From NCBI GenBank assembly GCA_017643395.1, contig JAEPNP010000002.1, forward strand, positions 226,290 through 290,289: DNA of 64,000 nucleotides. The letters are read 5' to 3'. The position numbers and the translations under genes are program-made. Positions 5,917 to 31,445 of this stretch are shown in pieces. Position 1 is the first letter of the stretch, and each line of letters opens with the position of its first letter. This DNA is from Rhodothermales bacterium (GTDB lineage: Bacteria; Bacteroidota; Rhodothermia; Rhodothermales; UBA10348). The notes beneath the pieces are model-generated. The model was not told the DNA's origin and ran no database searches. It worked only from the letters and a program-made list of their open reading frames with translations.

Positions 5917-8493
5917 ATGCCGCACCTGGTCGTCGTTGAGTCCCCCACCAAGGCCCGCACCATCCGACGCTTCCTGCCCAAGGAGTACCGCGTCGAAGCC
6001 AGCATGGGCCACGTCCGGGATCTCCCCGCATCGGCCAGCCAGATTCCGAAGCGTCTCAAGGGAGAATCCTGGTCCCGGCTCGGTGTCAATGTGCAGGATG
6101 GCTTCGAGCCGCTCTACGTGGTACCCCCGGAAAAAGCCAAGGTGGTTCGCGAGCTGAAGGAAGCGCTCAAGGATGCGGACGAACTCTATATCGCGACTGA
6201 CGAAGACCGGGAAGGAGAGTCCATCGGCTGGCATCTGCTTGAGGTGCTCAAGCCCAAGGTGCCGGTCAAGCGCATGGTGTTCCACGAGATCACGGAGCAG
6301 GCGATTCGAGAGGCTCTCGATCACACCCGGTCGATGGACGAGTCGCTGATCGAGGCGCAGGAGACCCGACGGGTGCTGGACAGGCTGGTCGGGTATACGC
6401 TGTCGCCGCTGCTCTGGAAGAAGGTTGCCCCCAAGCTCTCGGCCGGCCGCGTGCAGAGCGTCGCCGTGCGCATCATCGTGAATCGCGAGAAGGAGCGCAT
6501 CGCCTTCGTACCGGCCACCTACTGGAACATCGACGCCAAACTGCAGGCCGCGAACGGCGCGTTTGACGCTGCACTCACTCATGTTGCCGACGTGCGGATA
6601 GCTGCCGGACGCGACTTCGACGACGATACCGGGCGCCTGAAGGCGGACCTGACCAATGGAGTCGACGTGCTGCAGCTCACCGAGGAGCGCGCCAAAGAGC
6701 TGACCGCGGAGTTGGAGAAGGCGGTCTGGACCGTGAACTCCGTCGAGTCCAAGACGTCCACTCGGTCTCCTGCGGCGCCGTTCATTACCTCCACCCTGCA
6801 GCAGGAGGCGAGCCGCAAGCTTCGGCTGTCGGCCCGGGAGACGATGCGGGTGGCGCAGCGGCTGTACGAGCAGGGTTTCATTACGTACATGCGAACCGAC
6901 TCGACCAACCTGTCTGCCGAAGCCATGACGGCGGCGCGCAAGGCCATCGAGTCACGATACGGTTCGGACTACCTGTTCAACGGCGGTCGTACGTACGCCA
7001 ACAAGGTGCGCAACGCCCAGGAGGCTCACGAGGCCATCCGGCCGTCCGGTACGGCCATGAAGACGGCCGATGAACTCAAGCTGAGCGGTGTCGAAGGCAA
7101 GCTGTACGATTTGATCTGGAAGCGCACCGTCGCCTCCCAGATGGCCGATGCGCGCCTGCGCACGGTGACCGTTCGCATTGGAGCCGGCGAGGGCGACAAC
7201 GCCTGCACCTTCCGCGCCTCAGGACGCACGATTGAATTCCCGGGCTTCATGCGCGCCTATGTGGAGGGCTCGGATGACCCGGAGGCCCAGCTGGAGGATC
7301 GCGAGTCCCCGCTTCCGGCCATGTCCGAGGGCGACAATCCGAAATGCACCGAACTGGAGGCCCGCGGCTCGGAGACGAAGCCGCCGGCTCGGCTCACGGA
7401 CGCATCGCTCATCCGCATTCTCGAGAGTGAAGGAATCGGCCGCCCGAGTACCTACGCCTCCATCATCGACACCATCGTCAACCGCGGGTACGTGAAGCGG
7501 CAGGGCAGTCAGCTTGTGCCCACATTCACGGCGTTTGCGACCACGAATCTTCTCGAGAGCAACTTCGGTCAGCTGGTGGATGTCGGTTTCACGGCCGAGA
7601 TGGAGCAGATTCTGGACGACATCGCCAGTGGCGAGAAAGAGCCGGATCAGTTCCTTCGCCAGTTTTATGTCGGCAGCGATGGACTGCAGACCAAGGTCGA
7701 GGAAGGGCTCGACAAGATCGACGCGCGTGCCGTGTCAGAAATCAAGCTCGAGCCCTGGCAGCCGTACAGCGTGCGAGTCGGCCGATACGGTCCGTACGTG
7801 GAGGTTCAGAAGAACGGCAACGAGGACTCGACAAAAGCCTCGCTGCCGGATGACTGGACCCCGGGAGACGTCACGGTCGAGAAGATCGAAGAGCTGATCC
7901 AGGCCGCCGACGAGGGCGATCGGGTCGTCGGAATCCACCCGGAGCACAACGTGCCGGTGCTCGTGTGCCGAGGCCCGTATGGCTACTACGTGCAGCTCGG
8001 GGAAGGGGACGGCGACGAGAAGCCCAAGCGAATCTCGGTTCCGAAGGGCAAGGATCCCGAGACCCTCGAGCTGGACACGGCCGTGGCGCTACTGGGTCTG
8101 CCCCGCCTGGTGGGCAACCACCCGGAGTCGGGGAAAGAGATTCACTCCAACATTGGTCGCTATGGTCCGTACGTCAAGCACGGATCCACCTTCGCGTCAC
8201 TGACGCCGGAGGACGATGTGCTTACCGTGGACCTGGACCGGGCACTCGCCCTGATCGCCAAGAAGGAGTCGCGGAACAAGGCGCTGAAGACGGTGGGCAA
8301 TCACCCGGAGGACGACGAGCCCATCGAGCTTTTCGAAGGGCGGTATGGCCCGTACGTGAAGCACGGCAAGGTAAACGCGTCAATCCCGAAGGGTACCGAT
8401 CCGGATAGCGTGAGCGTGGAGCAGGCCGTCGAGCTGCTCGCAGCCCGCGCGGCGCGCAAGAAGACCAAAGGCCGCGGCCGGCGGAAGAAGTAG
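5917..8493 (+). CDS. topA: DNA topoisomerase I (type IA)
   Basis: TopA relaxes negative supercoils by single-strand passage. The 858-residue protein starts with the TOPRIM domain (VVVESPTKARTI; metal-binding DREGESIGWHL). The active-site tyrosine is residue 324 in FITYMRTDSTNLS. Instead of Cys4 zinc fingers, the C-terminus holds about four topoisomerase C-terminal repeats recognisable by GRYGPYV or PYGYYV, and a basic tail ending GRGRRKK. This repeat-type C-terminus is usual in Bacteroidota and Actinobacteria. A degenerate repeat array follows directly. Confidence 0.97.
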   Translation: MPHLVVVESPTKARTIRRFLPKEYRVEASMGHVRDLPASASQIPKRLKGESWSRLGVNVQDGFEPLYVVPPEKAKVVRELKEALKDADELYIATDEDREGESIGWHLLEVLKPKVPVKRMVFHEITEQAIREALDHTRSMDESLIEAQETRRVLDRLVGYTLSPLLWKKVAPKLSAGRVQSVAVRIIVNREKERIAFVPATYWNIDAKLQAANGAFDAALTHVADVRIAAGRDFDDDTGRLKADLTNGVDVLQLTEERAKELTAELEKAVWTVNSVESKTSTRSPAAPFITSTLQQEASRKLRLSARETMRVAQRLYEQGFITYMRTDSTNLSAEAMTAARKAIESRYGSDYLFNGGRTYANKVRNAQEAHEAIRPSGTAMKTADELKLSGVEGKLYDLIWKRTVASQMADARLRTVTVRIGAGEGDNACTFRASGRTIEFPGFMRAYVEGSDDPEAQLEDRESPLPAMSEGDNPKCTELEARGSETKPPARLTDASLIRILESEGIGRPSTYASIIDTIVNRGYVKRQGSQLVPTFTAFATTNLLESNFGQLVDVGFTAEMEQILDDIASGEKEPDQFLRQFYVGSDGLQTKVEEGLDKIDARAVSEIKLEPWQPYSVRVGRYGPYVEVQKNGNEDSTKASLPDDWTPGDVTVEKIEELIQAADEGDRVVGIHPEHNVPVLVCRGPYGYYVQLGEGDGDEKPKRISVPKGKDPETLELDTAVALLGLPRLVGNHPESGKEIHSNIGRYGPYVKHGSTFASLTPEDDVLTVDLDRALALIAKKESRNKALKTVGNHPEDDEPIELFEGRYGPYVKHGKVNASIPKGTDPDSVSVEQAVELLAARAARKKTKGRGRRKK

Positions 8494-8790
8494 CGGCTCG
8501 CGAGCCGGTGGTCCGCTTGGGACCTCGGCGAGAGCCCACGGTTGTGGAATCCGGCGGCGGTAGTCCACTCGGCGCCGCGGCACCAGCCTTCCCTCCGCGC
8601 TCCGGCCGCTCGGGGCCGCGGCGCGAGCCCCGGTTGTGGAATCCGACGCCGTTGGTCCACTTAGGACCGCCGCGCGACACCCCCGATGTGGAATCCGCCT
8701 CCAGTTCTCCACTCGGCGCTCCGAGCCGGCGCCGCAGTTGTGGAATCCGCCCCCGGTAGTCCACTCCGCGCCGCGGCGCGAGCCCCCTTT
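8491..8790. repeat. Degenerate ~52-bp tandem repeat with internal inverted repeat
   Basis: Four units begin with (A/G)TTGTGGAATCCG or ATGTGGAATCCG at about 8541, 8633, 8686 and 8737, and a half unit lies at 8491-8540. Each unit has the form GTGGAATCCG, GC-rich core, GGTAGTCCACT or GTTGGTCCACTT, then GCGCCGCGGCGCGAGCCCC. GTGGA and TCCAC form an inverted repeat. Unit spacing is 51-53 bp except for the first, which carries about 40 extra bases. The array lies between the convergent genes topA and rsgA. The rest of the gap (8791-8877) is C-rich with nothing recognisable. Related units occur at 30744-30899. Confidence 0.8.
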
Positions 8791-8877: not shown

Positions 8878-9771
8878 TCACCTACCCACGTCTGCGTCTC
8901 CCAGGTGTAGCGAATAAAGCATGCCCAGATAGGAGTCGTAGCGCTCGATATTCAGGCGCCCCTCATCGACCGCTTCCTTGACCGCGCAGCCGGGCTCATG
9001 GTCGTGGGTGCAATTGGGGAATCGGCAGTGGGGAATCAGCGGCACCATCTCCGGGAAGTAGTGCGACAGGTGGGGCGGGTCCAGCCCGATTAGTCCATAT
9101 TCGCGAAGCCCCGGGGTGTCGACTACAAAGCCCCCCTGCTCGAGCGGGTGCAGGGACGCGACGGTAGTCGTGTGCGTACCCTTCCCGGTCGCGGCACTGA
9201 TCTCTCCCGTGCGCAGATCCAGTCCAGGGCTGATCGTGTTCAACAAGGTGGTCTTTCCGACTCCGGAGGGGCCTGCCACGACTGAAATTTTGTCTCGAAG
9301 CGCCTTCCTCAGCTTGCGCAGGCCTTTCCCGGTCTGTGCACTTACGGCGAGCACCGGGTAACCCAACTCCTCATAGACCCGAGTCCAGGCTTTGAGCGCC
9401 TGTTTGTCGATGCGCCCATCGACCAGATCGACCTTGTTGATCACAATGCCGGCTGGCAAGGAATTGGTAGCGGCCATGACCAGGAATCGATCGACAAACC
9501 CCGGATTGAACTTTGGAAGGTCCCACGCCTGCACTACCCAGGCGAAATCGATGTTCGTGGCAATCACGTGAGCCTTGCCGATCCGCCTGCCGGCCGCGCG
9601 GCGCACCAGGCTGCGGCTCCGCTCACCGATTCCGACGATCAAGCCGGTGTCATCTGCATTTCGCCGCAAGACAACCCGGTCGCCCACAACGACGGGGCTG
9701 GTCTCTCCTCCTGCGGAAAGCCTGAACTTGCCGCGCACTTTGCACGGCACGGTTTCGTCATCCACGCGCAC
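8878..9771 (-). CDS. rsgA: Ribosome small-subunit-dependent GTPase A
   Basis: RsgA is a circularly permuted GTPase that acts late in 30S maturation. Visible are an OB-fold N-terminus, NKVD (G4), SAQTGKGL (G5), then Walker A GPSGVGKTTLLN, DTPGLREYG, and the zinc knuckle CRFPNCTHDHEPGC. The coordinates use the last standard start (GTG). However, the frame continues upstream as GVVVRSTGSWYDV, which matches the conserved N-terminus of Bacteroidota RsgA. The true start is therefore probably further up, perhaps the CTG at 9831, with no ATG, GTG or TTG available. The next upstream gene ends at 9837. Confidence 0.95.
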   Translation of the reverse strand: MRVDDETVPCKVRGKFRLSAGGETSPVVVGDRVVLRRNADDTGLIVGIGERSRSLVRRAAGRRIGKAHVIATNIDFAWVVQAWDLPKFNPGFVDRFLVMAATNSLPAGIVINKVDLVDGRIDKQALKAWTRVYEELGYPVLAVSAQTGKGLRKLRKALRDKISVVAGPSGVGKTTLLNTISPGLDLRTGEISAATGKGTHTTTVASLHPLEQGGFVVDTPGLREYGLIGLDPPHLSHYFPEMVPLIPHCRFPNCTHDHEPGCAVKEAVDEGRLNIERYDSYLGMLYSLHLGDADVGR

Positions 9772-10224: not shown

Positions 10225-13200
10225 CTAACGAGAGACGACGAGCGTTTCGGCATAGTCGTCTCCCAGGAGCAGATATACGCCCGGAGCGAGCGAGGGCAGT
10301 GTCAATCGCGCCGGCCCCGGTGCGAACCGCCACTCGGCAAGCTCGCGACCCAGTAGATCGTACAGAGTTACGGAACGCGGGGTCGCGGCCTCTCCGAGAG
10401 AAACCTGCTCGCCGCCGCCAACGGGATTCGGAAAGGGCGCTTGCAGGTGCCGAACCTGGGGGTGCGGCTCTCGATTGACCCTGAACGACACGCCCGGACG
10501 CCAGCTGGAAGCCGCCATCCCGGCATCCACAGCCTGGATGGCCCACGAAAACTCACCGTCTTCCAGTCCCTCCAGCCGCAGTTCCGTTCCACGAAGCCCG
10601 CCATGGCGTACGCGGGTGCGGGCCGGGCCCGGGTAGCCCGATTCCAACTCGCCCCGCCATCCCCGACCGTCACGGATCACCACATCGTAGGTCATGGCCT
10701 CAGGTGGTGTCGAATCGTCGGAAGACGCGGTCCACCGAAGCACCACCGCATCACCGTCCTTCACCCAACTCGTCTGTCGCGGAGCGATCGGCGGCAGGTT
10801 GGACGGTCCAAGCTGAAATCGAACAAGGGCCGGACGGATTGCCCCATTTTCGCGCACGCCGGCCGCTCCTGCTCCGTTCTGGCCGTTGGCGGCCCAGTCG
10901 GCCAAGGCGCCCCAGCCTTCACGCACGTTGAGGTCGCTTCCGACCAGGTTGGCGAACCTGCCTCCCACTTCAGTCAAATTCCGTTCCACGAGCATGCGGT
11001 CCTGGTTCCAGACCAAGAGGTCAACGACGCCATCCCCCGTGACGTCGCCAGGTGCCGACCTCAATCCGGGGAGCGAGCGGAACGTGCGGCTCTCCTCTTG
11101 CGACCCGTCGGGCCGACTCATGTACGTGGTCGTCTCCACGGATGACCTGCACGAAGTCCTCGAGGGACAGTGACGGCCGACGATCTGAATATCCAGCGTG
11201 CCATCGGAATTAAGGTCCAGCACGCTCAGCCCGGCGCTCTCGACCCGCACCAACGAATCAGGCGTGGGCGCAAAACCCCAGGGCTCCTGATACCAGATTC
11301 TGGCCCTGGACCGCCCCCTGGGCACGGCGATGAGGTCGCGCATCCCGTTGCCGTCCACATCCTCCCAGACAGAGGTGCCGGCCGTGGGGTCGACAACTTG
11401 AATCCGGCCGTTTTGCAGATCAACGGCCCAGCCCTCTCCGAGAATGTCCGGACGCCCATCCTGGGTAGCGTCCCCGATCTGGAGCAAATCCCCCCCGGGG
11501 AATGGGGCGATTTCCCGCCACCCGGCACCTTCCGTCCAGTGCTGAAGGGTGCCGCTCCGCACGGCCAGTACGCCGGGACCGCGACCTGAAATGGCAGCAA
11601 AGATCGCGGGCGTATCGGGATCGACCACGCCGATTGACTGCAATTTTTGCCCGCTGGCGCGATTCCAGACAATCGCCGCCGTGTGCTCGCCAGTTCCGAC
11701 GGCCTGCTCCCAACCGGTCTGGAGCAGGTCGATGCGGCCGTCGCCGTTCGGGTCGCCGAAGTCTGCACGGCCGGCCCGCTTGGCGAGAGCGGTGGTGCGC
11801 ACCGATGTGCGAATCGGAATGCCGATCCGGGGGACTTCCGGGTGGGTGGTGCTGACTTCCAGCGACGCCGCGTAGTCGCCGGGCGAGAGGTTCGAAGCCG
11901 AGAAAACCACATCGACCGTCTGACGGGCGCCAGGTTGCAGCGCACCATTCCGGGGCGAGGCGTGATCCCAGAACGGACCCGCCGAGACGTCCTGCCAGGA
12001 AACGGCGGTCGTGCCGTCGTTGACCAGGGTCACCCGGATGGTGTCGGTGGCCACTTGGGGACGCGGGAACGTTTCGGAGACATAGGTGACCAACTCATCC
12101 GGCGCATCCGCCTTCAGCGGCACCTCGGCCCTCCCTTCGCCCTCCAGGGCCACGGTGCGTTCAACCCCGTCCCAGGTGACACTGAGGTTCGCTGATTGCG
12201 CGCCGGACCCGGTCGGTGCGTATTCGACGAGCAGTCCCCTGGAAAGGCGCGGATGTAACGTGGCCGAAGCGCTCGATATAACGAACGACTCGTTCGCGGA
12301 CCCGAAGGACAGCTGCGCTTCGAGGTCCCGAATGCTGTGAATGGAGATGGTGCGACCGGAGCTTGTGCCCGTCTGCACCGCGCCAAAGTCCAGGGCGCGC
12401 GGCACGACCAGCACGCCCGAGGCCGCCATATCCACCGCATGATCCGCCCGCAGGGTCAGCGACGAGGCAAGACGGTCCCGAATCGACCGCGCGACCCGGC
12501 CGGACCCACGAATGGCCAGTTCCACGTCCGCGGGCGTGAAGTCGGGAGCAGCGGCGCACACCAGCGCAGCCACACCGCTGACCAGGGCTGCGGAGACGGA
12601 AACCCCTCCGCTCTCGGCAAAGCCTCCACCCAACGCCGTGCTTAGCACTTCTTCTCCAGGCGCCGCGGCATCGACTGTATTGAGTCCGTAGTTGACTCCC
12701 TCCATGAACTCTCCCGACCGAGCGACGGCCGTGACGACAATCATTCCCGGCAGGTCCAGCGCGGCCGGCCAGATATTCTTGGTCCGGTCCAGATTGAAGC
12801 TGCCGTTTCCAGCTGCGGCGACGACTACGGCACCGCGGGCAAGCAGGCGCGCGAATGCCGCATTGACCTCGCGATATTGCACCATGCTGACCCAGGAAAT
12901 GTTGGCGATCTGGACACCATGCCGACCGGCGTAGTCCAGAGCCTCCGCCGCAGCAGCCAGATCCACCGATCGTGTGTGGGCTGCGATGCGGAGCGGCAGA
13001 ATACGGGCTTCAGGCGCCACTCCGTACACACCGCTCCCATCGACGGCCCGAGCGGCAATCACGCCTGCCAGGTGCGTGCCGTGCCCGTGCCCGTCCATCG
13101 GATCATTGTCGTCGTCAATGAAATCCCATCCGATGAGATCATCCACAAACGTGCTCGGGTCCCCATCGAAGTCGTCGTCATCGACTCCGTTCAGATCCCC

Positions 13201-13551
13201 GGGGTCCAGTACCCAGCGCGAGCCGTCCCACTCCATCGTGCGACCGTCTCCATCCGCATCCTCTGCCAGATTCTGCCAGATAGCCGGGCCCAACTCCTGC
13301 CGACCCCAGTCCACGCCGGTGTCGATCATGGCCACGAGCGCACCCCCGCCCCGCGTGACCGCCCAGGCATCCTCCACGGCCAGCATCTCCGGGCCCAGTG
13401 CCCACTGGCCGGTCAGCTCAGGGTCCTGAGCGCCCACGGGAGCGACAAGACCCACAAGGAGCGTCGCTGCCGCGACGGCCCTGAAGGTGGCCTCAATCGG
13501 CAGTCGCCAGCTGCTTCTCGCGAGCCGGTTCGACCTCGGGCATGTCATTCC
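10225..13551 (-). CDS. Secreted S8 (subtilisin-like) peptidase with T9SS sorting domain
   Basis: A large exported serine protease. The signal peptide ends APVGAQ. The S8 catalytic Asp lies in MIDTGVDWG, the His in [11 protein letters not shown], and the Ser most likely in [16 protein letters not shown], an unusual form of the usual GTSMAxPHVAG. A choice-of-anchor-D-like domain ([14 protein letters not shown]) follows, then FG-GAP/VCBS-like segments ([33 protein letters not shown]), a fibronectin-like region, and a C-terminal type A sorting domain ([26 protein letters not shown]). Cell-surface or extracellular location via type IX secretion follows from that domain. The ATG at 13551 was chosen to give a usable signal peptide; it overlaps the acyl-CoA dehydrogenase gene by 59 bp. 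The start remains uncertain. Confidence 0.88.
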
Positions 13552-17919: not shown

Positions 17920-20361
17920 ATGGCATCCACAGTCAAGAAGCGCAGCGCTTCGAAGAAGGCGTCTTCCGGAGACCAGCCATTCGTCACCGGGCAACGCAAG
18001 CGTGAGATCCTGGGGCTGATCCTGCTTGTGGTGTCGGCTCTCCTGCTGCTCGCCATTGTGTCCTACGAGCCGCTCGATGACCGACTTGCCCGCCGATTCT
18101 CGCTGGATGCCCTGCTGGACCCGGGCGACGATCGGGCCTTGAACGCCTTGGGGCTCACGGGCGCCTGGCTGGCCCGGTTGATGGTACCCCAGTTCCTGGG
18201 TTACTGCTCAATTCTGCTTCCGCTGCTGCTGGGCAGTTGGGGCTGGATCTGGTTTCGAAATCGCGTAGCGCTGTACCTGCCGCTGGTAACCTGGCTCGTC
18301 CTGGGCGGCGCCGTCTTTCTTTCCACGCTGTTCGGATGGGTCGGGTTGGTCAGCGAGGCGGACATGACGCCTTGGGCAGGGGCCGTCGGCCTCGGTCTGG
18401 CGGGCTGGATGGATCAGGTATTCGGCCGGCCCGGATCCTTCGGGTTGATCGTGCTGCTGCTTTCGGTGACCGTGCTCCTGATCATCGACAGAGATATCCA
18501 GCGATCGCTGGATCGCGTCGAGAACTTCTTCATAGGCGTCGGCAAGCGCTTCAGGAAGGGTTGGGAGAACTACACCATCGACCGGTTGGAGCGAAAGGAA
18601 GTACGCAAGGAGGCGCTTGCCGAACGCCGCAAACAGCGAGACAACGCCCGGGAGACGGCAGCGTCACAGGCGAAAACCGGCGTCGCTGCTCCGGCCACAC
18701 CAGAGCCGAGGTTCAACTCTCCGCGCGAGGCTGAAGTGATGCCTCCGCCCGCAAAGGCCGTCCCTCCCCAGCCTCCCAGAACGCCCGTCCCTTTGCCACC
18801 GGCGGCCGACGCCGATGTGGCCATTCAGGTAGCCCAGCGGGTACAGGAAGAGCGCGCGGACGACCTTCCCTCCAAGGGTATGAGGTCACCCTTCCGGATG
18901 CCTCCGCTGGATCTGCTCGACAGCAGCGATGCGAGTGATGCCGAAATCGACCACGAGGAGCTCGAGGAAAACAAGCGCATCCTGCTCGACAAGCTGAGCA
19001 CCTACAGCATCGAGATCGTCGAGATCAAGGCCATCATTGGGCCGACCGTCACGCTCTACGAACTCACGCCGGCGCCCGGAGTCAAGATCTCCCGCATTAC
19101 CGCCCTGGAGAATGATCTGGCGATGGCCATGGCGGCGCCGGGTATCCGAATGATTGCGCCGATTCCCGGCAAGACGGCCATCGGCGTAGAGATACCGAAC
19201 CGGCACCGCGAGCTCGTAAGAATCCGGGATGTGATCGGCACGGCTCGGTTCCGTGACAACGAGATGGAACTGCCACTGATTTTGGGCAAGTCCATTGAGG
19301 GTGAAGTGGTGCTGCAGGACCTCACCAAGCTGCCGCACGGGCTCATAGCCGGGGCAACGGGCTCCGGCAAGTCGGTGGGGCTGAATACGTTTATCGCCGG
19401 ACTGCTGTACGCGTGCTCGCCGGACGATCTCAAGTTTGTGATGATCGATCCCAAGAAGATTGAGTTGTCTGCCTACAGCCGGATTGCTTCCCACTACGTC
19501 GCCATGCCGCCCGAGGCGGACACGCCCATCATCACGGACGTGGCCCAGGCTTTGGGAACGCTCAAGAGCTGCGAACGCGAAATGGAGGAGCGATACGACC
19601 TGCTCTCCGCGGCACGAGTGCGCTCCATTCGTGAGTACAACGAGCGTTTTGACGGCGGCACGCTGGACCCCTCCGACGGTCACAAACATCTGCCCTACAT
19701 CGTCGTCGTCGTCGACGAACTGGCCGACCTCATGATGACCGCCGGCAAGGACATCGAAGCGCCCATCGCCCGTCTGGCCCAGATGGCCCGCGCGGTCGGC
19801 ATCCACCTGATTCTTGCCACGCAGCGCCCGTCCGTCGACGTGATCACCGGACTCATCAAGGCCAACTTCCCGGCGCGAATGGCCTACCAGGTGGCCTCCA
19901 AGATCGATTCCCGCACCATTCTCGATCAGAACGGCGCTGAGGGACTGGTCGGCAACGGAGACCTGCTGTACATGCTCGGCAGCAAAATCATCCGCCTGCA
20001 AGGCCCCTACGTTTCGCTTGAGGAAATCGACCGCGTCACCCAACACATCGGCGAGCAGCGTGGTCCGGGACCTTATGTACTGCCGTCCATTGAGCAGGAC
20101 GGCGGCATGGGCGGGCCTGGTGGCGGGTCCGGCGGCACGGACCGGGACGACCTGTTTGAGGAGGCTGCACGCATCATCGTTCGCAGTCAGCAGGGATCCG
20201 TTTCCCTCCTTCAGCGCAAGCTCTCGGTCGGATACTCGCGAGCCGCGCGTATTGTGGACCAGTTGGAGGATGCCGGCATTGTAGGGCCGTTTGAGGGATC
20301 CAAGGCGCGCCAGGTCCGGGTTGCCGACGAGATGGAACTGGACGCACTTCTCCGTTCATGA
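17920..20361 (+). CDS. ftsK: DNA translocase FtsK/SpoIIIE
   Basis: A septal DNA pump for chromosome segregation. The 813 residues comprise an N-terminal membrane region with about four helices (residues 30-190), a short Pro/Ala-rich linker, and the RecA-like motor with Walker A GATGSGKSVGLN (around residue 478) and Walker B YIVVVVDELADLMM. The C-terminal gamma winged helix is visible (QGSVSLLQRKLSVGYSRAARI). The linker is short compared with E. coli. Its last bases overlap the purK start (ATGA). Confidence 0.96.
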   Translation: MASTVKKRSASKKASSGDQPFVTGQRKREILGLILLVVSALLLLAIVSYEPLDDRLARRFSLDALLDPGDDRALNALGLTGAWLARLMVPQFLGYCSILLPLLLGSWGWIWFRNRVALYLPLVTWLVLGGAVFLSTLFGWVGLVSEADMTPWAGAVGLGLAGWMDQVFGRPGSFGLIVLLLSVTVLLIIDRDIQRSLDRVENFFIGVGKRFRKGWENYTIDRLERKEVRKEALAERRKQRDNARETAASQAKTGVAAPATPEPRFNSPREAEVMPPPAKAVPPQPPRTPVPLPPAADADVAIQVAQRVQEERADDLPSKGMRSPFRMPPLDLLDSSDASDAEIDHEELEENKRILLDKLSTYSIEIVEIKAIIGPTVTLYELTPAPGVKISRITALENDLAMAMAAPGIRMIAPIPGKTAIGVEIPNRHRELVRIRDVIGTARFRDNEMELPLILGKSIEGEVVLQDLTKLPHGLIAGATGSGKSVGLNTFIAGLLYACSPDDLKFVMIDPKKIELSAYSRIASHYVAMPPEADTPIITDVAQALGTLKSCEREMEERYDLLSAARVRSIREYNERFDGGTLDPSDGHKHLPYIVVVVDELADLMMTAGKDIEAPIARLAQMARAVGIHLILATQRPSVDVITGLIKANFPARMAYQVASKIDSRTILDQNGAEGLVGNGDLLYMLGSKIIRLQGPYVSLEEIDRVTQHIGEQRGPGPYVLPSIEQDGGMGGPGGGSGGTDRDDLFEEAARIIVRSQQGSVSLLQRKLSVGYSRAARIVDQLEDAGIVGPFEGSKARQVRVADEMELDALLRS

Positions 20362-21482
20362 GCCTGCTCGGCATTCTGGGGGGCGGCCAGCTGGGTCGTA
20401 TGTCCGCGCAGGCGGCAATTCGTTTGGGATTGTCTGTGCGCACGTTGTCTCCGAAGCCGGCTGGGCCGGTGGAGGCTCTCGGCGAGGCCATGGTCGGAGA
20501 TTGGACGGACCCGGACGTGCTGCAGCGCTTTGCGGAGGGTTGCACTGCCGTTACCGTGGAGAGCGAGTGGGCTCCCGCGGAGCACCTGCGGCCGGTCTTG
20601 CCGTCGGGAGTGCGTCTCTATCCGACCCCGGAGACGCTGCGCATCATCCGGCACAAGGGCCGCCAGCGCTCTGCCATGCACAAGGCCGGCATCCCCGGCG
20701 CCGATTTCCGGCGGTGTGCCTCAAAGGAGGACGCCGGGAACGCCGCCGAATCGTTTGGCTATCCCGTGGTTCTCAAGCGTTATGAGGGTTCGTACGACGG
20801 GTATGGGAACGGCATTGCGCACTCCAGAGACGACATAGAAGACATCTGGGATCGCCTTTCCGGCCCGGATGGATTGCTTGTCGAGGCGTTTGTGCCTTTC
20901 AAGCAGGAACTGTCGGTTCTGGTCGTGCGGCGAGAGACCGGAGACATGGTCAGCTATCCGCCGGCGTACACCGAGCAGAAGAACGCACGCTGCCACGCCG
21001 TCGTCGTGCCGGCAAACATCTCCCCGGAGACCGCAGCGCGAGCGGACGAAGTCGCGCGCGCGGCAGCGGAAACCGTGCAGAGCGTCGGTGTGCTGGGCGT
21101 CGAGCTTTTCGAGACCGAGGACGGCCATATCCTGCTCAACGAACTGGCACCTCGGCCCCACAATACCGGGCACTACAGCATCGAGGGCAGCCACACCTCA
21201 CAGTTCGAAAACCACGTCCGCGCGGTGATGGGCCTTCCCCTCGGGGACCCTGGACTACGCGTTCCCTGTGCCGTCATGATCAACGTGCTCGGTACCCGCA
21301 GCGGAGCCGTGTCGCTTGAAACGCTTCCGGACGCCCTGGACGTCCCGGGAGCCGCCGTGCACATCTACGGCAAGAAGGAGGCGCGGCCAGATCGTAAGAT
21401 GGGCCATGTCACGGCGACAGGATCCGATCCCGCGGAAACCAGGGCCAGAGCCGAAAAGGCCGCATCGCGCATTATCCTTTAG
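20358..21482 (+). CDS. purK: 5-(carboxyamino)imidazole ribonucleotide synthase
   Basis: PurK carboxylates AIR to N5-CAIR with ATP and bicarbonate in purine synthesis. The N-terminus [18 protein letters not shown], the ATP-grasp segment [18 protein letters not shown], and [17 protein letters not shown] are diagnostic. The start overlaps the ftsK stop by 4 bp, and purE follows after 22 bp. The two enzymes act in succession. Confidence 0.97.
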
Positions 21483-21504
21483 CAGCCAAGCACCTCGACA
21501 AGAC

Positions 21505-22011
21505 ATGGCACAAGACGCACCACGTGTTGGACTGGCGATGGGCAGCGAGTCCGACTGGCCGGTTATGGAGGCCGCCTCGGATATTCTGCATGAGTTTGGC
21601 GTGGCGTTCGAAGCCCGCGTGCTCTCCGCTCATCGCACGCCGTCCGCCATGCAGTCGTACGCCGAAGAGGCCGCCGGACGCGGCCTGAAGGTGATCATAG
21701 CCGGGGCGGGCGGCGCGGCCCATTTGCCGGGCATGATCGCAGCATCGACCACGCTTCCCGTCATTGGCGTGCCCGTGCCGACCCGCAACCTCAAAGGAAT
21801 GGACTCCCTTCTGTCGGTGGTGCAGATGCCGGGGGGTGTCCCGGTGGCGACCGTGGCCATCGGCGGTGCCAAGAACGCCGGACTGCTGGCCGTGCAGATC
21901 CTCGCCACCTCGGATGAAGGGCTCGCGGCAGCGCTGGCCGCCTACAAGGAGTCGCTCAAGGAGCTGGTGGCGGGCATGGACGCGCGCGTGTCGGAGGCGG
22001 CCGGGAAGTAG
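21505..22011 (+). CDS. purE: N5-CAIR mutase
   Basis: PurE rearranges N5-CAIR to CAIR. The ATG at 21505 gives [21 protein letters not shown], with the class I motif GSx[19 protein letters not shown] and [15 protein letters not shown] follow. At 168 residues it is standard length. Earlier in-frame starts lie inside purK and are not supported. It ends the plus-strand run; tandem-repeat arrays follow at once. Confidence 0.97.
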
Positions 22012-22031
22012 CGAGCGCTCGGCAGCGCGCA

Positions 22032-22247
22032 GCCGGCGCAGTCGGGGCGCGTGCGGCCTTTTTGGGCCTCGCGCGGCCGGCGCAGTCGGGGTGCGTTCGA
22101 TCTTTTTGGCCTCGCGCGGCCGCCGGAGTCGGGCCGCGTTCATCCTTTTTGGCCTCGCGCGGCCGCCGCAGTCGGGCCGCGTTCACCCTTTTTGGCCTCG
22201 CGCGGCCGCCGCAGTCGGGCCGCGTCCACCCTTTTTGGCCTCGCGCG
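22032..22247. repeat. Tandem repeat A, five 43-44-bp terminator-like units
   Basis: Units begin at 22032, 22076, 22119, 22162 and 22205. The regular unit reads GCCGCCGCAGTCGGGCCGCG, then TTCACCCTTTTTGGCCTCGC. Units 3-5 contain the perfect inverted repeat CGCGGCC/GGCCGCG with a 10-nt loop, followed by a T5 run. On the plus strand each therefore looks like a rho-independent terminator, directly downstream of purE. The period of 43 moves all reading frames, so the open frames here are not genes. Confidence 0.85.
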
Positions 22248-22604
22248 GCCGCCGCAGGTTCCATTTCGGGCCGCATTCAACCTTTCAGGCCAGAAACAGC
22301 CGCCGCAGGTTCCATTTCGGGCCGCATTCAACCTTTCGGGCCGGAAACGGCCGGCGCAGGTTCCATTTCGGGCCGTGTTCAACCTTTCAGGCCAGAAACA
22401 GCCGCCGCAGGTTCCATTTCGGGCCGCATTCAACCTTTCGGGCCGGAAACGGCCGCCGCAGGTTCCATTTCGGGCCGTATTCAACCTTTCGGCTCGGAAA
22501 CAGCCGCCGCAGGTTCCATTTCGGGCCGTATTCAACCTTTCGGCTCGGAAACAGCCGCCGCAGGTTCCATTTCGGGCCGTATTCAGCCTTTCAGGCCGGA
22601 AACA
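22248..22604. repeat. Tandem repeat B, seven 51-bp units
   Basis: Units begin exactly every 51 bp at 22248, 22299, 22350, 22401, 22452, 22503 and 22554. Each starts GCCGCCGCAGGTTCCATTTC (GCCGG in one), continues GGGCCGCATTCAACCTTTC and ends GGGCCGGAAACG or a close variant. It shares GCCGCCGCAG and TCGGGCCGCrTTCAmCC with repeat A, so the two arrays are related; B has an extra GTTCCAT-like block and lacks the T5 run. Because 51 is a multiple of three, long frames stay open but encode only repeats. Confidence 0.88.
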
Positions 22605-22808
22605 GTCGCCGCCAGCACGCCCGGCCGGCCCTCGGGTCACGCACGGCCGCAGGCACGCACAGCCGGCCCTCGGGCCCACGCACACCCGCCGCACGCCTCG
22701 CACGGCCCAGCCCTCGGACCCGCAAGCCGCCACACCGCGCACCGCACCGGCAGGCACCGGCGCCCCCCCGCACCGGCAGGCACTAGCAGGGCAACGCCAC
22801 AAGCCCCC
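22605..22808. repeat. GC-rich tract with short imperfect direct repeats
   Basis: This stretch joins repeat B to the stop of the minus-strand GWxTD gene. It contains two copies of GCCGGCCCTCGGGycACGCAC (about 22624 and 22662) and two of CACCGGCAGGCAC (about 22744 and 22771). I see no gene and no convincing terminator. Confidence 0.55.
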
Positions 22809-25250
22809 CTACTCCAGGAACAGCTCCCGCTGTCGGGTGACTTCCTGGCCGGTCTTGCGGTCGGTGACCGTCAGCGTGAGCGTGTAAAGGCCCGTCTCCT
22901 GGTTCGAGGCATCCAGTATGAGGTACTGGCCGTCGGTCGTGGATGCGATCGAGGTCGGCAGGCTGACGGAAACGCCGCGATCCCCGCCTCCGAACACGCC
23001 ACGTACCAAACGACCCACGCCAGAGCCACGGTCCTTGGGCTCGAGCTTGGCGGTTACTTCGTAGTTGGCCCGCCCATCGCCCGAGACATCCAGGTTGTAG
23101 ACCTCGAAGTACAGGTAGATGGGGTTGGTGCGGCCGAATACACTCCAGGGCGCAGGCGTGATTGAGAAGCCGTTGCGCACCACGTCGGAGCCTACAAGGG
23201 GCCGACCGTCCTCTGTCTCTTCGGCGCGGTAAGCCAGCATGATGTCACTCACCGAGAGCCGATCGGTGTCGAAGTTGGGGATGTCAACCTCCCGCCTCTG
23301 AACCGCAACGGTGCCGCCCGAGGTGGTCTCGAATTCGACGCTCACGTCGACTTTGCCGGGAGGCACGGTCACGGTTTCCGAATCTATCCAGAGGTTCGCC
23401 TCCTCAAACTGCACAATCTGGTCGGTACGCAGTCCATAGATGGTGCGTCTGCGCTCCGCCAGAATGTCGCGATCCTCTGAGATCACGAACGTGCCGGCGT
23501 TGGCGGTGACATTGATCATGTCCCCCTGGTTGCCGAATTCCAGGATCGGGATGCCGTAGTTCACCACCAGATCGGCACTGCCCGCCGAGCCACGGAAGGC
23601 GGAGACCAGATATGGCAGCTCAATCTGTCTGCCAGGGGCCTCGTAATCGTACCGGTCCGGCGTGCGACGGATGGTTTCCGCCGCCTTGATGGTGTAGTCA
23701 TTCACCCACGGCACGGCGCCCTGCGAGAGGTCAGCCGCGGACGGACTGAACATGCGGTATTCGCCGTTCCGGAAGGGGTCCTCGAAGACAAACTTGAAGT
23801 CCCCGTAGTCCCAGATATTGAATGTGTTGGCCTCATCTCCCAGATCAAAGTCGGTCCCCCGCTGAGCGACCTGGAGTACCAACCGGGTCCCCGGCTGCGT
23901 CGGGTCATTCTGGTCGACACCGTTCTGGCCAGGGGCGCCTCGCTGCACGCCGGAAGTGGATTTGGGAATGATCACTACGTCACCCTGCGGCACCCCATAC
24001 CGCACCAGGATGGAACCGCGTTCGGTGTCCCACCCGCGCAGATCCATTTCCTCGGAACCGTAGAGCAGGTCGGCGTAGGTCAGGCGGGAGTAGTGCTCGA
24101 GCTTGCGCTCGTTGTACGGAGTCAGGTAGCGCGGGTCCTTCGACGTCCAGTAGCGGGCGGCGTATCCGGTCGGATCCTCCCGATAGCGCCGTTTCTCGTC
24201 CTCCGGCATCAGGAATTCGATGTTGTCAAAGGCTCTCCGGGTGCCATCGTCCATGCTCTCGAACGACGACTCGAAGGCCTTCGCCGCGGCGTCCAGATTT
24301 CCGAAGCGGTGGTGCGCCAGGCCCAGGTAGGTCCACAGTTCGGGATCCTCGGGGAAATAGACGTACATCTGCTGGAGCATGTCCAGCGCATCCTGCCACT
24401 CTCCCTTCAACGCATAGATCTCCATGAGACGGTCGTAAACGCGCCTGTTGCGCGGATCGGCGTCGAGGGCCTTGAAGAGGTGAAACACTGCGCGGTCGTA
24501 GGCCTGCTGGGCACGACCCGAGAAATCGACAACAGGAATGCCCTGGTTTGCCAGCGTCTCGACATCGAATTCGTCGGCCATGAACACCGACTCGGGGTTC
24601 AGCGAAGGCAGGGCACTGAGCTGTTCCATCCCGGCCACCGGAGGCAACTCGTCCAGGTTCTGTAGCTCGGCCTCGATCCGCTGCATTTGACGGATCTCAT
24701 CTACCAGCGCACCGGCGATCGGGTCGAGTTCACGCCGCGCACGATACGCGTACTCGTTGAACTGCACCGTGGGGTACATCAACGCGTTCCGATACCGCCA
24801 GAAGTCCCGGATGTAGCTGCTGCCCAGCTCCTCGTGAGCAAACGCATTCGTGGAGTCAAGCTTCAGGATGTCCCGGGCCAGATCCCGCCGCTGCGCCTCG
24901 CGCACCTTGTCGGTGAGAAAGAAGCTGGAATCCTCACCCAACTGCTGCATGCGCGCCGTCAGGTACTTGACGTTTTCGGGCTCGATTTCGAGGGCCTTGT
25001 CCAGCTCTCGACCGGCCCGCTTGACGTCCTTCAGATCTGTCTCGAAGTAGATCCGGGCCAGCAGGAAATGAGCCTCGGCATTGGTGTCGTCCTGTTCGAC
25101 TGCGCGCTGAAACGCCTGCACGGCCTCCGAGTGACGGCCTTCCCGGAAAGCCAGAATGCCCTCCACCATGGGATCCGAGCTCGACTGGGCCCATGCCGGG
25201 GGAATCGCCGCACCGGCGAGCAAAAGGACAACAAGAAGAAAGCGGACCAT
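22809..25250 (-). CDS. GWxTD-domain protein with TPR region (exported)
   Basis: GWxTD-domain proteins are found mainly in Rhodothermia and related phyla and have no established function. The ATG at 25250 gives signal peptide MVRFLLVVLLLAGAAIPPAWA. Residues 25-330 contain TPR-like repeats (GILAFREGRHSEAVQAFQRA). The GWxTD region follows: RYWTSKDPRYLTPYNERKLEH, then RGWDTERGSILVRYGVP. The C-terminal third is beta-rich and ends LYTLTLTVTDRKTGQEV. It is a clear paralogue of the protein at 28505-30592, sharing the same order and C-terminal motifs (YFEVY, YEVTA). It lies 150 bp downstream of the lipoprotein gene with its own candidate promoter. Confidence 0.88.
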   Translation of the reverse strand: MVRFLLVVLLLAGAAIPPAWAQSSSDPMVEGILAFREGRHSEAVQAFQRAVEQDDTNAEAHFLLARIYFETDLKDVKRAGRELDKALEIEPENVKYLTARMQQLGEDSSFFLTDKVREAQRRDLARDILKLDSTNAFAHEELGSSYIRDFWRYRNALMYPTVQFNEYAYRARRELDPIAGALVDEIRQMQRIEAELQNLDELPPVAGMEQLSALPSLNPESVFMADEFDVETLANQGIPVVDFSGRAQQAYDRAVFHLFKALDADPRNRRVYDRLMEIYALKGEWQDALDMLQQMYVYFPEDPELWTYLGLAHHRFGNLDAAAKAFESSFESMDDGTRRAFDNIEFLMPEDEKRRYREDPTGYAARYWTSKDPRYLTPYNERKLEHYSRLTYADLLYGSEEMDLRGWDTERGSILVRYGVPQGDVVIIPKSTSGVQRGAPGQNGVDQNDPTQPGTRLVLQVAQRGTDFDLGDEANTFNIWDYGDFKFVFEDPFRNGEYRMFSPSAADLSQGAVPWVNDYTIKAAETIRRTPDRYDYEAPGRQIELPYLVSAFRGSAGSADLVVNYGIPILEFGNQGDMINVTANAGTFVISEDRDILAERRRTIYGLRTDQIVQFEEANLWIDSETVTVPPGKVDVSVEFETTSGGTVAVQRREVDIPNFDTDRLSVSDIMLAYRAEETEDGRPLVGSDVVRNGFSITPAPWSVFGRTNPIYLYFEVYNLDVSGDGRANYEVTAKLEPKDRGSGVGRLVRGVFGGGDRGVSVSLPTSIASTTDGQYLILDASNQETGLYTLTLTVTDRKTGQEVTRQRELFLE

Positions 25251-25320
25251 GTCTAGTCTGCGCGGTTTGCGCCGTATAACCTCAACCGAATGCAACGCGA
25301 TCGTGGGGAGCTTGATTCTG

Positions 25321-25328
25321 CAAACGTA
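25321..25328 (-). promoter_or_regulatory. Candidate Bacteroidota -7 box
   Basis: The minus strand reads TACGTTTG, a full match to the Bacteroidota -7 consensus TAnnTTTG, about 70 bp upstream of the GWxTD start. No convincing TTG at -33 was seen. Confidence 0.4.
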
Positions 25329-25399
25329 TCCGCATGTAGCGGCGTGTGGGCGAATGGTGTGAATCGCGGGCTAAACCGATCCTCCTGGGTCACTCCGCG

Positions 25400-26251
25400 C
25401 TACTCATTGGCAAATCCGGCCAAGCGAAGCACCGCTGCCTCCGGCAGGGTACTGGTACGTTCGTGATACCCGGCGCCGACGAAGCCAAACCCGTTGTCCA
25501 CGTTGGAGAAAACCCCTGGTTGCACAAGGACTTCCGTGACGAACCGGCCACCCGGAGGCGACCACTCCTCTGTAGCAATGAAGGCTTCCACGACAAGATC
25601 CAGCAGGACGATGGGATCTGTGCCGGGCTGAAGCCCCGTCACCGAATAAAGCACCCCAATATCCCTGGACAGATCGACCGCCATGGACCACGTGGTGCCC
25701 TCTCTCGTCAGACTGCCGTCGTAGATGACGGGGATCGTCCACTGAAACGGCGGGCGCGTGGACTCGAACCGGTAGAACACCCGCGGCGACAACACCTGTT
25801 CGGCGCCGGTGAACGCCACCGGCATGCGCACGTTGCCGAGCACCCCGTCCGCCTGACCAAGCGTCAAATCAGCCTTGGCTGGGGTCGTCACCTGAACGGA
25901 GGTGAGCCGCCCCCTAGCGTCCTCCGCTTCGATGACGTACGTGGTCTGAAAAGCGGGACGGATCCGGGCCTGAAAAACGTGTCCGATCGAGCCGTCCCAG
26001 TACCGAACCACCGAATCCGCAAAAGCGGTCGTGCCCCCCGGCCCAATCAGACTGATGCGCGCTTCGAGCGGCGTCGTATCGGTGACCTCCAGAATGTCCT
26101 CGATCGGGAAAACGCGCAGGGACTGCCTGTCCGATCCGGGATCGACATACCCGTAGAGCGTGAAGGCCCGCTCGGACTCCAGCACCGGATCGACGGCCTC
26201 ATCACAGCCCATCAGGAAGACGAGGCATGCTATGACAACCCAGCTCCTCAT
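25400..26251 (-). CDS. DUF4249-like lipoprotein
   Basis: A 283-residue exported lipoprotein: the signal sequence ends in the lipobox LVFLMGC. The body (FTLYGYVDPGSDRQSLRVFP, LTSVQVTTPAKA) resembles DUF4249 proteins, beta-sandwich lipoproteins that are usually encoded next to a TonB-dependent receptor and may act as its surface partner. Here the start overlaps the end of the TonB receptor gene by 4 bp (ATGA), fitting that pairing. The substrate is unknown. Confidence 0.75.
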   Translation of the reverse strand: MRSWVVIACLVFLMGCDEAVDPVLESERAFTLYGYVDPGSDRQSLRVFPIEDILEVTDTTPLEARISLIGPGGTTAFADSVVRYWDGSIGHVFQARIRPAFQTTYVIEAEDARGRLTSVQVTTPAKADLTLGQADGVLGNVRMPVAFTGAEQVLSPRVFYRFESTRPPFQWTIPVIYDGSLTREGTTWSMAVDLSRDIGVLYSVTGLQPGTDPIVLLDLVVEAFIATEEWSPPGGRFVTEVLVQPGVFSNVDNGFGFVGAGYHERTSTLPEAAVLRLAGFANE

Positions 26252-30743: not shown

Positions 30744-30899
30744 ATATGGGATCCGGGGGCGCTATTCCACCTCAGGGGCCGCCGAGACCGCCCCGACATG
30801 GAATCCGGGGGCTCCATTCAACTCGCGGGGCCGACGAAACCGCCCCTACATGGAATCCGGGGGCGTTATTCCACCTCCGCGGCCGCCGAGACCGCCGAG
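30744..30899. repeat. Three 52-bp tandem units of the TGGAATCCG family
   Basis: Units begin at 30744, 30796 and 30848, exactly 52 bp apart. Each has the form ACATGGAATCCGGGGGCG, then TTATTCCACCTC, then GCGGCCGCCGAGACCGCC. TGGAAT and ATTCCA make an inverted repeat in unit 3. On the opposite strand the core GCGGAGGTGGAATAACG resembles GCGGAGTGGACTACCG of the array after topA, so both loci belong to one family. The stretch 30593-30743, between the GWxTD start and the first unit, holds at most a degenerate further unit. Confidence 0.8.
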
Positions 30900-30974
30900 A
30901 CCGCCGAGACCGCCGAGACCGCCGAGTCCGCCGAGACCACCGAGACCGCCAAGGCCGCCGAGACTGCCGAGACC
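30885..30974. repeat. Ten copies of a 9-bp repeat GCCGAGACC
   Basis: A regular 9-bp repeat, ten copies with six exact and four one- to three-base variants, continues from the last 52-bp unit and stops 7 bp before the smpB stop codon. It probably arose by slippage from the GCCGAGACC segment at the end of the 52-bp unit. Confidence 0.85.
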
Positions 30975-30980
30975 GCCCGG

Positions 30981-31445
30981 CTACTCCGCGTGCCCGCCCT
31001 TCTGGATCCGGTCCAGTCGCCGTTTGGACTCGCGCTCCGCAATGTCAGCGCGCTTGTCGTAGAGCTTTTTACCCTTGCCGAGACCAATCTCCAGCTTGGC
31101 TCTTCCGTTGGAGAAGTACAGCCGCATCGGCACGATGGTGTACCCCTTCTGCTGGGCGGCCTTGTCGAATCGATCGATCTCCTTCCTGTGCAGCAGCAAC
31201 TTGCGCGGACGGAGGGGATCGTGATTCATGCGATTCCCGAAATCATACGGCGCGATGTGACACTGCATCAGGTACATCTCGCCCTGCTTCACCTGGCAGA
31301 ACGCCTCCTGCAGGTTGGCCTTTCCGGCCCGCAGGGATTTGACTTCGGTGCCCAGCAACTCCATGCCGGCCTCCAGGCGCTCGTCGATGTGATACTCGAA
31401 GCGCGCCTTGCGATTGGAAACGACGGTCTTGGTACCGTCGCCCAT
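30981..31445 (-). CDS. smpB: SsrA-binding protein
   Basis: SmpB binds tmRNA and brings it to stalled ribosomes for trans-translation. The ATG at 31445 gives 154 residues with the expected NRKARFEYHIDERLEAGMEL, LLGTEVKSLRAGKANLQEAF, HIAPYDFGNRMNHDP and C-terminal GKKLYDKRADIAERE. Its ATG overlaps the TGA of the MqnA-like gene. The tmRNA gene itself was not seen in the window. Confidence 0.97.
   Translation of the reverse strand: MGDGTKTVVSNRKARFEYHIDERLEAGMELLGTEVKSLRAGKANLQEAFCQVKQGEMYLMQCHIAPYDFGNRMNHDPLRPRKLLLHRKEIDRFDKAAQQKGYTIVPMRLYFSNGRAKLEIGLGKGKKLYDKRADIAERESKRRLDRIQKGGHAE

Follow-up and report, generated by a model that had tools for sequence, protein, structure and literature searches.

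The two tandem arrays that follow purE in a 64,000-nucleotide stretch of a Rhodothermales genome (hereafter the window; contig C2, positions 226290-290289, of the 4.5-Mb genome G000) may well be an expanded and partly decayed copy of a dispersed, non-autonomous MITE/BIME-like element that carries a phased array of six half-sites for a putative DNA-binding protein, a reading to which we give roughly even confidence. The element layout occurs in the window genome, in two congeners (G001 and G002) and in one other genus (G010). The family is apparently undescribed: the openly licensed literature on repeats, both of the order and in general, shows no description of it, and a search of openly licensed papers for the two half-site words returned nothing related. 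The survey is computational and covers one genome per species, home-made gene calls and stretches mostly selected for arrays. The features of the window are summarized in Table 1.

Table 1. Repeat arrays, related elements and flanking genes in the window
Feature	Position	Strand	Basis
Isolated dyad of the wider family, GTGGAAT-11-AGTCCAC	8544..8568		Pattern match
Three-dyad element, inner segments 11-11-11, linkers 27/27	8636..8764		Pattern match and layout scan
purE (flanking gene; AIR carboxylase)	21505..22011	+	PF00731, E 1.6e-65
A array, 43-bp units, 5.4 copies	22026..22257	+	Tandem Repeats Finder; A-B unit alignment
B array, 51-bp units, 7.2 copies	22248..22612	+	Tandem Repeats Finder; run of 7 dyads
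TPR-containing gene, convergent to purE (flanking gene)	22809..25295	-	Gene calls and domain match
Three-dyad element, inner segments 11-11-11, linkers 27/27	30746..30874		Pattern match and layout scan

Two related tandem arrays downstream of purE

As the original prediction had proposed, two tandem arrays follow purE (which ends at 22011) and face a convergent gene (ending at 22809), here a TPR-containing gene that we take to be that of a GWxTD protein. Tandem Repeats Finder (TRF) recovered both, the A array with period 43, 91% matches and a score of 343, and the B array with period 51, 92% matches and a score of 565. The proposed kinship of the arrays, one having evolved from the other, was likewise borne out, with a single 8-bp gap separating two A units from three B units in an alignment. 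The B dyads have the form GTTCCAT-10-ATTCAAC; the first begins at 22258, and seven follow one another in phase with 27-bp linkers. The 8-bp deletion in the A unit takes out one half-site of the B unit. The A array most likely derived from a B unit through this deletion rather than the reverse, because the architecture of B is seen throughout the genome and A is short of a half-site. Confinement of the units to this locus, which the original prediction had named as speaking against it, was not found: the B core occurs in about 20 other G000 loci (profile matches clustered by eye), 17 of them being arrays for which TRF gives a period of 51-52. In the congener G001, the orthologous gap behind purE lacks the array and has its own 25-bp tandem repeat of 2.9 copies (L229, 2019-2089), unrelated to A or B.

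A dispersed element with half-sites in fixed register

The DNA of the B array matched further G000 arrays at 67-74% identity, with units carrying AGGTTnnAT...ATnnAACCT or a close variant. The strict form of this pattern was found at 34 sites in G000, against 0 for a control pattern, and among 100 genomes including G000 three others were positive (1, 3 and 1 sites). A sequence model built from 29 units gave 169 G000 matches at E<=10, in many cases with both strands of a single dyad counted; across 41 genomes at E<=0.01 it gave 127 matches in G000, 4 in G002 and 1 each in G010, G020 and G038. A second class, GTGGAAT...ATTCCAC, is found in the window, at 8.5 and 30.7 kb, and at other loci, and its model had 160 G000 matches at E<=1. 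A hybrid unit in L284, AGGTGTAAT...ATTCCAC, joins the GTT and GTG classes. Of the two three-dyad elements in the window, the upstream one lies between a DNA topoisomerase gene (ending at 8493) and an RsgA gene (ending at 8878), which converge, and the other between smpB (ending at 30981) and the codirectional gene next to it. The latter is adjoined by a 9-bp repeat, CCGCCGAGA, with 10.6 copies at 30883-30977. Other repeats seen beside elements include about three tandem copies of a ~120-bp repeat, unrelated to the dyads, at about 4390-4812 of L392, and in G010 the loci L378 and L382 appear by eye to share a near-identical element and a similar flank, perhaps through segmental duplication. Matches also occur near contig ends of G000 (C1:697-1075, C2:669, C5:421537 and C7:148900), so that the assembly may understate copy numbers.

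The half-site consensus is approximately RARGTKGAAT / ATTCMACYTY, an inverted pair around 10-11 bp, in a logo that is biased by the search pattern used. The half-sites are 7-10 bp long, and their spacing is near-exact while the sequence between them varies. In runs defined by 22-32 bp linkers around pre-selected phased clusters, 168 of 187 linkers measured exactly 27 bp, the modal length in 73 of 78 runs. Runs of exactly three dyads made up 38 of 61 in G000, 4 of 8 in G010 and 3 of 5 in G001. At the array loci of G000 and G010, neighboring dyads with a 10- or 11-bp inner segment were 51-53 bp apart in 79 of 107 distances below 400 bp; the unit step is ~52 bp, or five helical turns, and 103 of 187 steps were exactly 52 bp. 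The inner-segment order 11-10-11 accounted for 24 of the 51 locus-architecture pairs whose linkers were 27/27; in 10,000 shuffles it averaged 7.2 and never exceeded 17. Whole three-dyad elements are present two to three times at L206, L390, L391, L395, L396, L399, L402, L404 and L409.

Sequence identity between loci was 0.35 for linkers and 0.40-0.42 for the inner segments, which are G/C-rich with a GGGGCC-like center, and 0.325 for flanks; successive units within arrays were more alike, at 0.71 for inner segments (33 arrays) and 0.62 for the middle of the linker (53 arrays). Neither conserved sequence nor a terminal repeat was seen in the 60-bp flanks of the elements. Three other interpretations of the repeats were set aside. 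A CRISPR array does not fit the B linkers and inner segments, which are near-identical within the array, where a CRISPR would have unique spacers. Because 51 is a multiple of 3, several reading frames stay open through the B array, but a coding repeat was rejected because the 52-bp steps would shift the frame. For a large palindrome centered on the middle dyad, linker self-complementarity was 0.397 versus 0.350 between loci in 24 loci of the 11-10-11 type and 0.365 versus 0.371 in 15 loci of the 11-11-11 type.

Distribution among genomes

A scan for the three-dyad layout recovered 70 elements in 723 kb of G000, or 16% of the genome (38 of 52 stretches, which had mostly been selected for arrays), a count in which long arrays and tandem duplicates enter several times. 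In G010 the scan covered 148 kb in 15 stretches, 12 of them chosen, and found 10 elements; in G001 it covered 513 kb in 30 stretches, 2 of them chosen, and found 5; the 22 kb of chosen sequence scanned in G002 yielded 3. Reversed-sequence controls gave 0 elements in each of these four genomes, as did 400 kb from eight other members of the order. Among stretches that had not been chosen, an element was present in 2 of 11 in G000 (220 kb), 3 of 28 in G001 (495 kb) and 0 of 14 in G010 (235 kb). The pattern GTKGAAT-N9..13-ATTCMAC had 22 sites in G000, 26 in G010, 3 in G001 and 2 in G002, and 1-2 sites in 16 of 110 other genomes of the order; the control pattern occurred once each in 2 of 114. Three of 20 loci from this pattern search contained a three-dyad element (in G000, G001 and G010). 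The layout scan found none in 244 kb around purE and the TPR gene in relatives, nor in 605 kb from 80 purE loci of named genomes. Among named genomes, a Rhodothermales MAG gave the best match to purE. A DNA similarity search of 60 relatives matched two, one being G000 itself; it led no further because the sequence of the element is not conserved.

Intergenic placement and empty sites in a congener

All 70 G000 elements lie in gaps between called genes, as delimited by our own simple ORF caller (coding share 0.873). The gaps with an element comprise 17 convergent, 19 tandem and 5 divergent, compared with 41, 164 and 75 among the gaps of at least 20 bp without one, so that convergent gaps are enriched for elements (17/41 vs 41/280, odds ratio 4.1, p 1.4e-4). 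G001 has five phased clusters, and one of these, L227, overlaps with a called ORF.

Over 45 kb of synteny with G001, 27 of 31 gene-pair gaps differ in length by at most 66 bp, with G001 gene ends extrapolated from tblastn. The three gaps that hold arrays in the window are longer than in G001, by 348, 723 and 232 bp, and thus provide the occupied and empty sites in relatives by which MITEs are recognized; the one remaining long gap (+1793 bp) contains a window gene without a match. For a called gene at window positions 10225-13437, tblastn (E<=1e-8) returned nothing from the corresponding syntenic segment of G001. The G001 stretches that carry the flanking genes of L394, L395 and L404 also contain no element (at L395 one flanking gene was unmatched). 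Insertion linked to tRNA genes was considered and dropped; tRNA genes were present in 11 of 60 sources scanned, a count for which no expectation was computed.

The A units as proposed terminators

The A units had been read as CGCGGCC/GGCCGCG hairpins followed by T5, that is, as serial intrinsic-terminator-like elements at the 3' end of purE. The stem is indeed perfect in three of the five units, but the T5 starts 7 nt past it, whereas an intrinsic terminator has a GC-rich stem with the T run directly after. A consensus scan of positions 21800-23000 found no excess of terminator-like sites (1 vs 1.5 +/- 1.3 in shuffles), and A-array stretches of 43 and 54 nt folded no better than their own shuffles (z 1.07 and 0.31). 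The gap between purE and the TPR gene is also short in relatives, at -10 to 151 bp in 23 of the 24 that have both genes convergent on one locus (repeat rows per genome removed) and 781 bp in G039. On these grounds the serial terminators were rejected. Covariance models of Rfam 15 gave 0 matches at E<=1 in window positions 20000-25500, and on eight loci two tRNAs and nothing else scored above the gathering score.

A candidate PLD nuclease

A gene of the PLD family has an element directly on its 5' side both in G000 (L286, 4659-5180, + strand) and in G001 (L385, 3684-4325, - strand). The two genes are 65-68% identical, and of the eight L385 genes this one alone matches the 24 kb around L286, the neighborhoods being otherwise different. 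The elements at the gene belong to different classes, GTT and GTG. The protein matches the PLD-like domain PF13091 (E 9e-16 and 6e-14) and resembles the Nuc endonuclease 1byr (E 6e-8) and, below curated cut-offs, DrmC and DpdK; by our own inspection it has an HTH-like part and a single HKD motif, and its predicted structure has a pLDDT of 41.9. Of 46 proteins flanking the G001 and G010 elements, two match the examined G000 sequence over half their length. One is the PLD protein; the other (L379 vs L395) is encoded two genes from the element in both genomes, with the element on opposite sides of the gene. No further copy of the PLD gene was found in the examined sequence, and none of the protein in viral contigs and plasmids. 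tRNA genes (Pro and Thr) were observed near the PLD gene and element in both species.

As a partner of the element, the PLD gene is a weak candidate: with tens of element loci per genome, chance may yield nearly as much, and the counts are too small to establish a link. It is quite unlikely, in our estimate, that the family is a small mobile element defined by a ruler of six half-sites (18, 34, 17, 34 and 18 bp from center to center) and recognized by a dedicated protein, possibly this PLD nuclease with its HTH-like part and single HKD.

Comparison with known repeat families

VNTR and MIRU-type repeats also lie between genes, as tandem units some tens of bp long whose copy number varies. Their loci share sequence, whereas the loci described here share spacing and half-sites. 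REP/BIME sequences are characterized in PMC2817692 as intergenic, multicopy, inverted units evenly spaced in alternating orientation, and are placed by a section of PMC3733652 mostly between unidirectional and convergent genes. The elements share the intergenic location, the alternating orientation and, with their 27-bp linkers, the regular spacing. They differ in that neither a GTAG nor a CGTC tag stands at the palindrome foot in the consensus, and in having a near-fixed linker and a usual count of three dyads. The Y1 (IS200-like) transposase domain PF01797 had no match in G000, G002 or G010; it had 3 matches in G001 and some in 10 of 31 genomes overall, with the positive control matching in 5 of 14 known genomes. 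With the transposase not found in G000 and the tag missing, membership in the REP/RAYT system was rejected. Pneumococcal BOX elements, as portrayed in part of PMC3049150, are also short, dispersed and intergenic, with an internal module of variable copy number and enrichment between convergent genes; BOX elements have distinct boxA and boxC ends and conserved sequence, whereas here it is half-sites and distances that are conserved. The family resembles BIME and BOX in distribution and conserves distances more than sequence.

Origin of the arrays and competing explanations

We propose that a DNA-binding protein would occupy the half-sites as a phased multi-dimer complex, that the elements may arrive at new intergenic sites in the manner of MITE/BIME-like non-autonomous elements, and that they would persist where they disturb least, at 3' ends. 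Some arrays could then lengthen via slippage or unequal recombination. At purE, a GTT-class element would have expanded to seven B units, and a unit short of one half-site through the 8-bp deletion would have been amplified into the A array.

It is also conceivable, if somewhat unlikely, that the dyads act as RNA, as tandem hairpins in 3' UTRs that end transcription or block exonucleases. The bias of the elements to gene 3' ends would suit this, as would their stable folding (mean z -2.07 over 110 strand foldings, 55 loci on two strands; -4.05 in G010), although inverted arms are expected to fold in this way in any inverted repeat. In tandem gene contexts G-U mismatches outnumber A-C (65 vs 39, 10-position arms), but the bias is gone when the seven core positions are counted per array (G-U in excess in 8, A-C in 8, ties in 9). 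Core complementarity is no better within the dyad (0.796) than across the linker (0.794), and with 0.784 for non-neighboring arms and 0.764 for different arrays, its near-equality for all arm pairs is as expected for repeated half-sites rather than one paired stem. One arm position is strongly matched left to right (G/G 144, T/T 50, mixed G/T 5, other 24, n=223) and the next is not (G/G 103, G/T or T/G 66). Although units belonging to the same array are not independent observations, two half-site types account for this better than a stem does. Further points against RNA stems are the internal mismatches of class 1 arms, common to units of the same array, the lack of excess terminator-like sites at purE, and the exact 27-bp linker and 11-10-11 order, which stems do not require. 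In the 5 bp outside the core, complementarity was 0.413 in the dyad, 0.441 across the linker, 0.385 for non-neighbors and 0.373 for different arrays; these slightly higher values for neighbors, together with the stable folding, may leave room for an RNA role. We favor dyads as protein half-sites over RNA stems, and any effect on purE transcription would be secondary.

If a protein does bind the half-sites, the sites might be kept by the host, much as numerous small tandem parS/sopC arrays would be, for a chromosome-organizing or partition-like protein; we regard this as unlikely. The near-unrelated inner and linker sequences could reflect old host-maintained sites instead of recent mobility, and the helical phasing and the conservation of half-sites and spacing alone agree with it. 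In an excerpt of PMC6238139, the F-plasmid parS (sopC) consists of twelve 43-bp tandem repeats with inverted-repeat motifs that are bound by ParB, and tandem units each with an inverted repeat resemble it. The F-plasmid site is a single plasmid centromere with 16-bp inverted-repeat motifs, in contrast to tens of chromosomal loci with dyads split by 10-11 bp. G001 is without an element at all six comparable G000 loci (three in the window, L394, L395 and L404), and the patchy occurrence over the family also speaks against host maintenance. Neutral slippage in GC-rich intergenic DNA, under no constraint, would account for the many other GC-rich intergenic tandem repeats in G000 and for the 92% likeness of the B units. 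It would not explain why the spacing is fixed even among unalike units (e.g., L206 and the G001 elements), nor the common layout in four genomes with 0 elements in reversed controls; this reading is already disfavored, and we consider it very improbable. The dispersed, non-autonomous element with phased protein half-sites is the reading that we retain.

Implications

The purE case corrects the tempting reading of 3'-end repeats as terminators. If the PLD link is true, the element and the PLD nuclease would form a REP-RAYT-like pair built on a PLD-type nuclease. Spacing that is conserved without sequence points to a putative multi-site DNA-binding machine in a little-studied bacterial family, and sequence-similarity searches tend to miss such elements because their loci share just short half-sites and distances.
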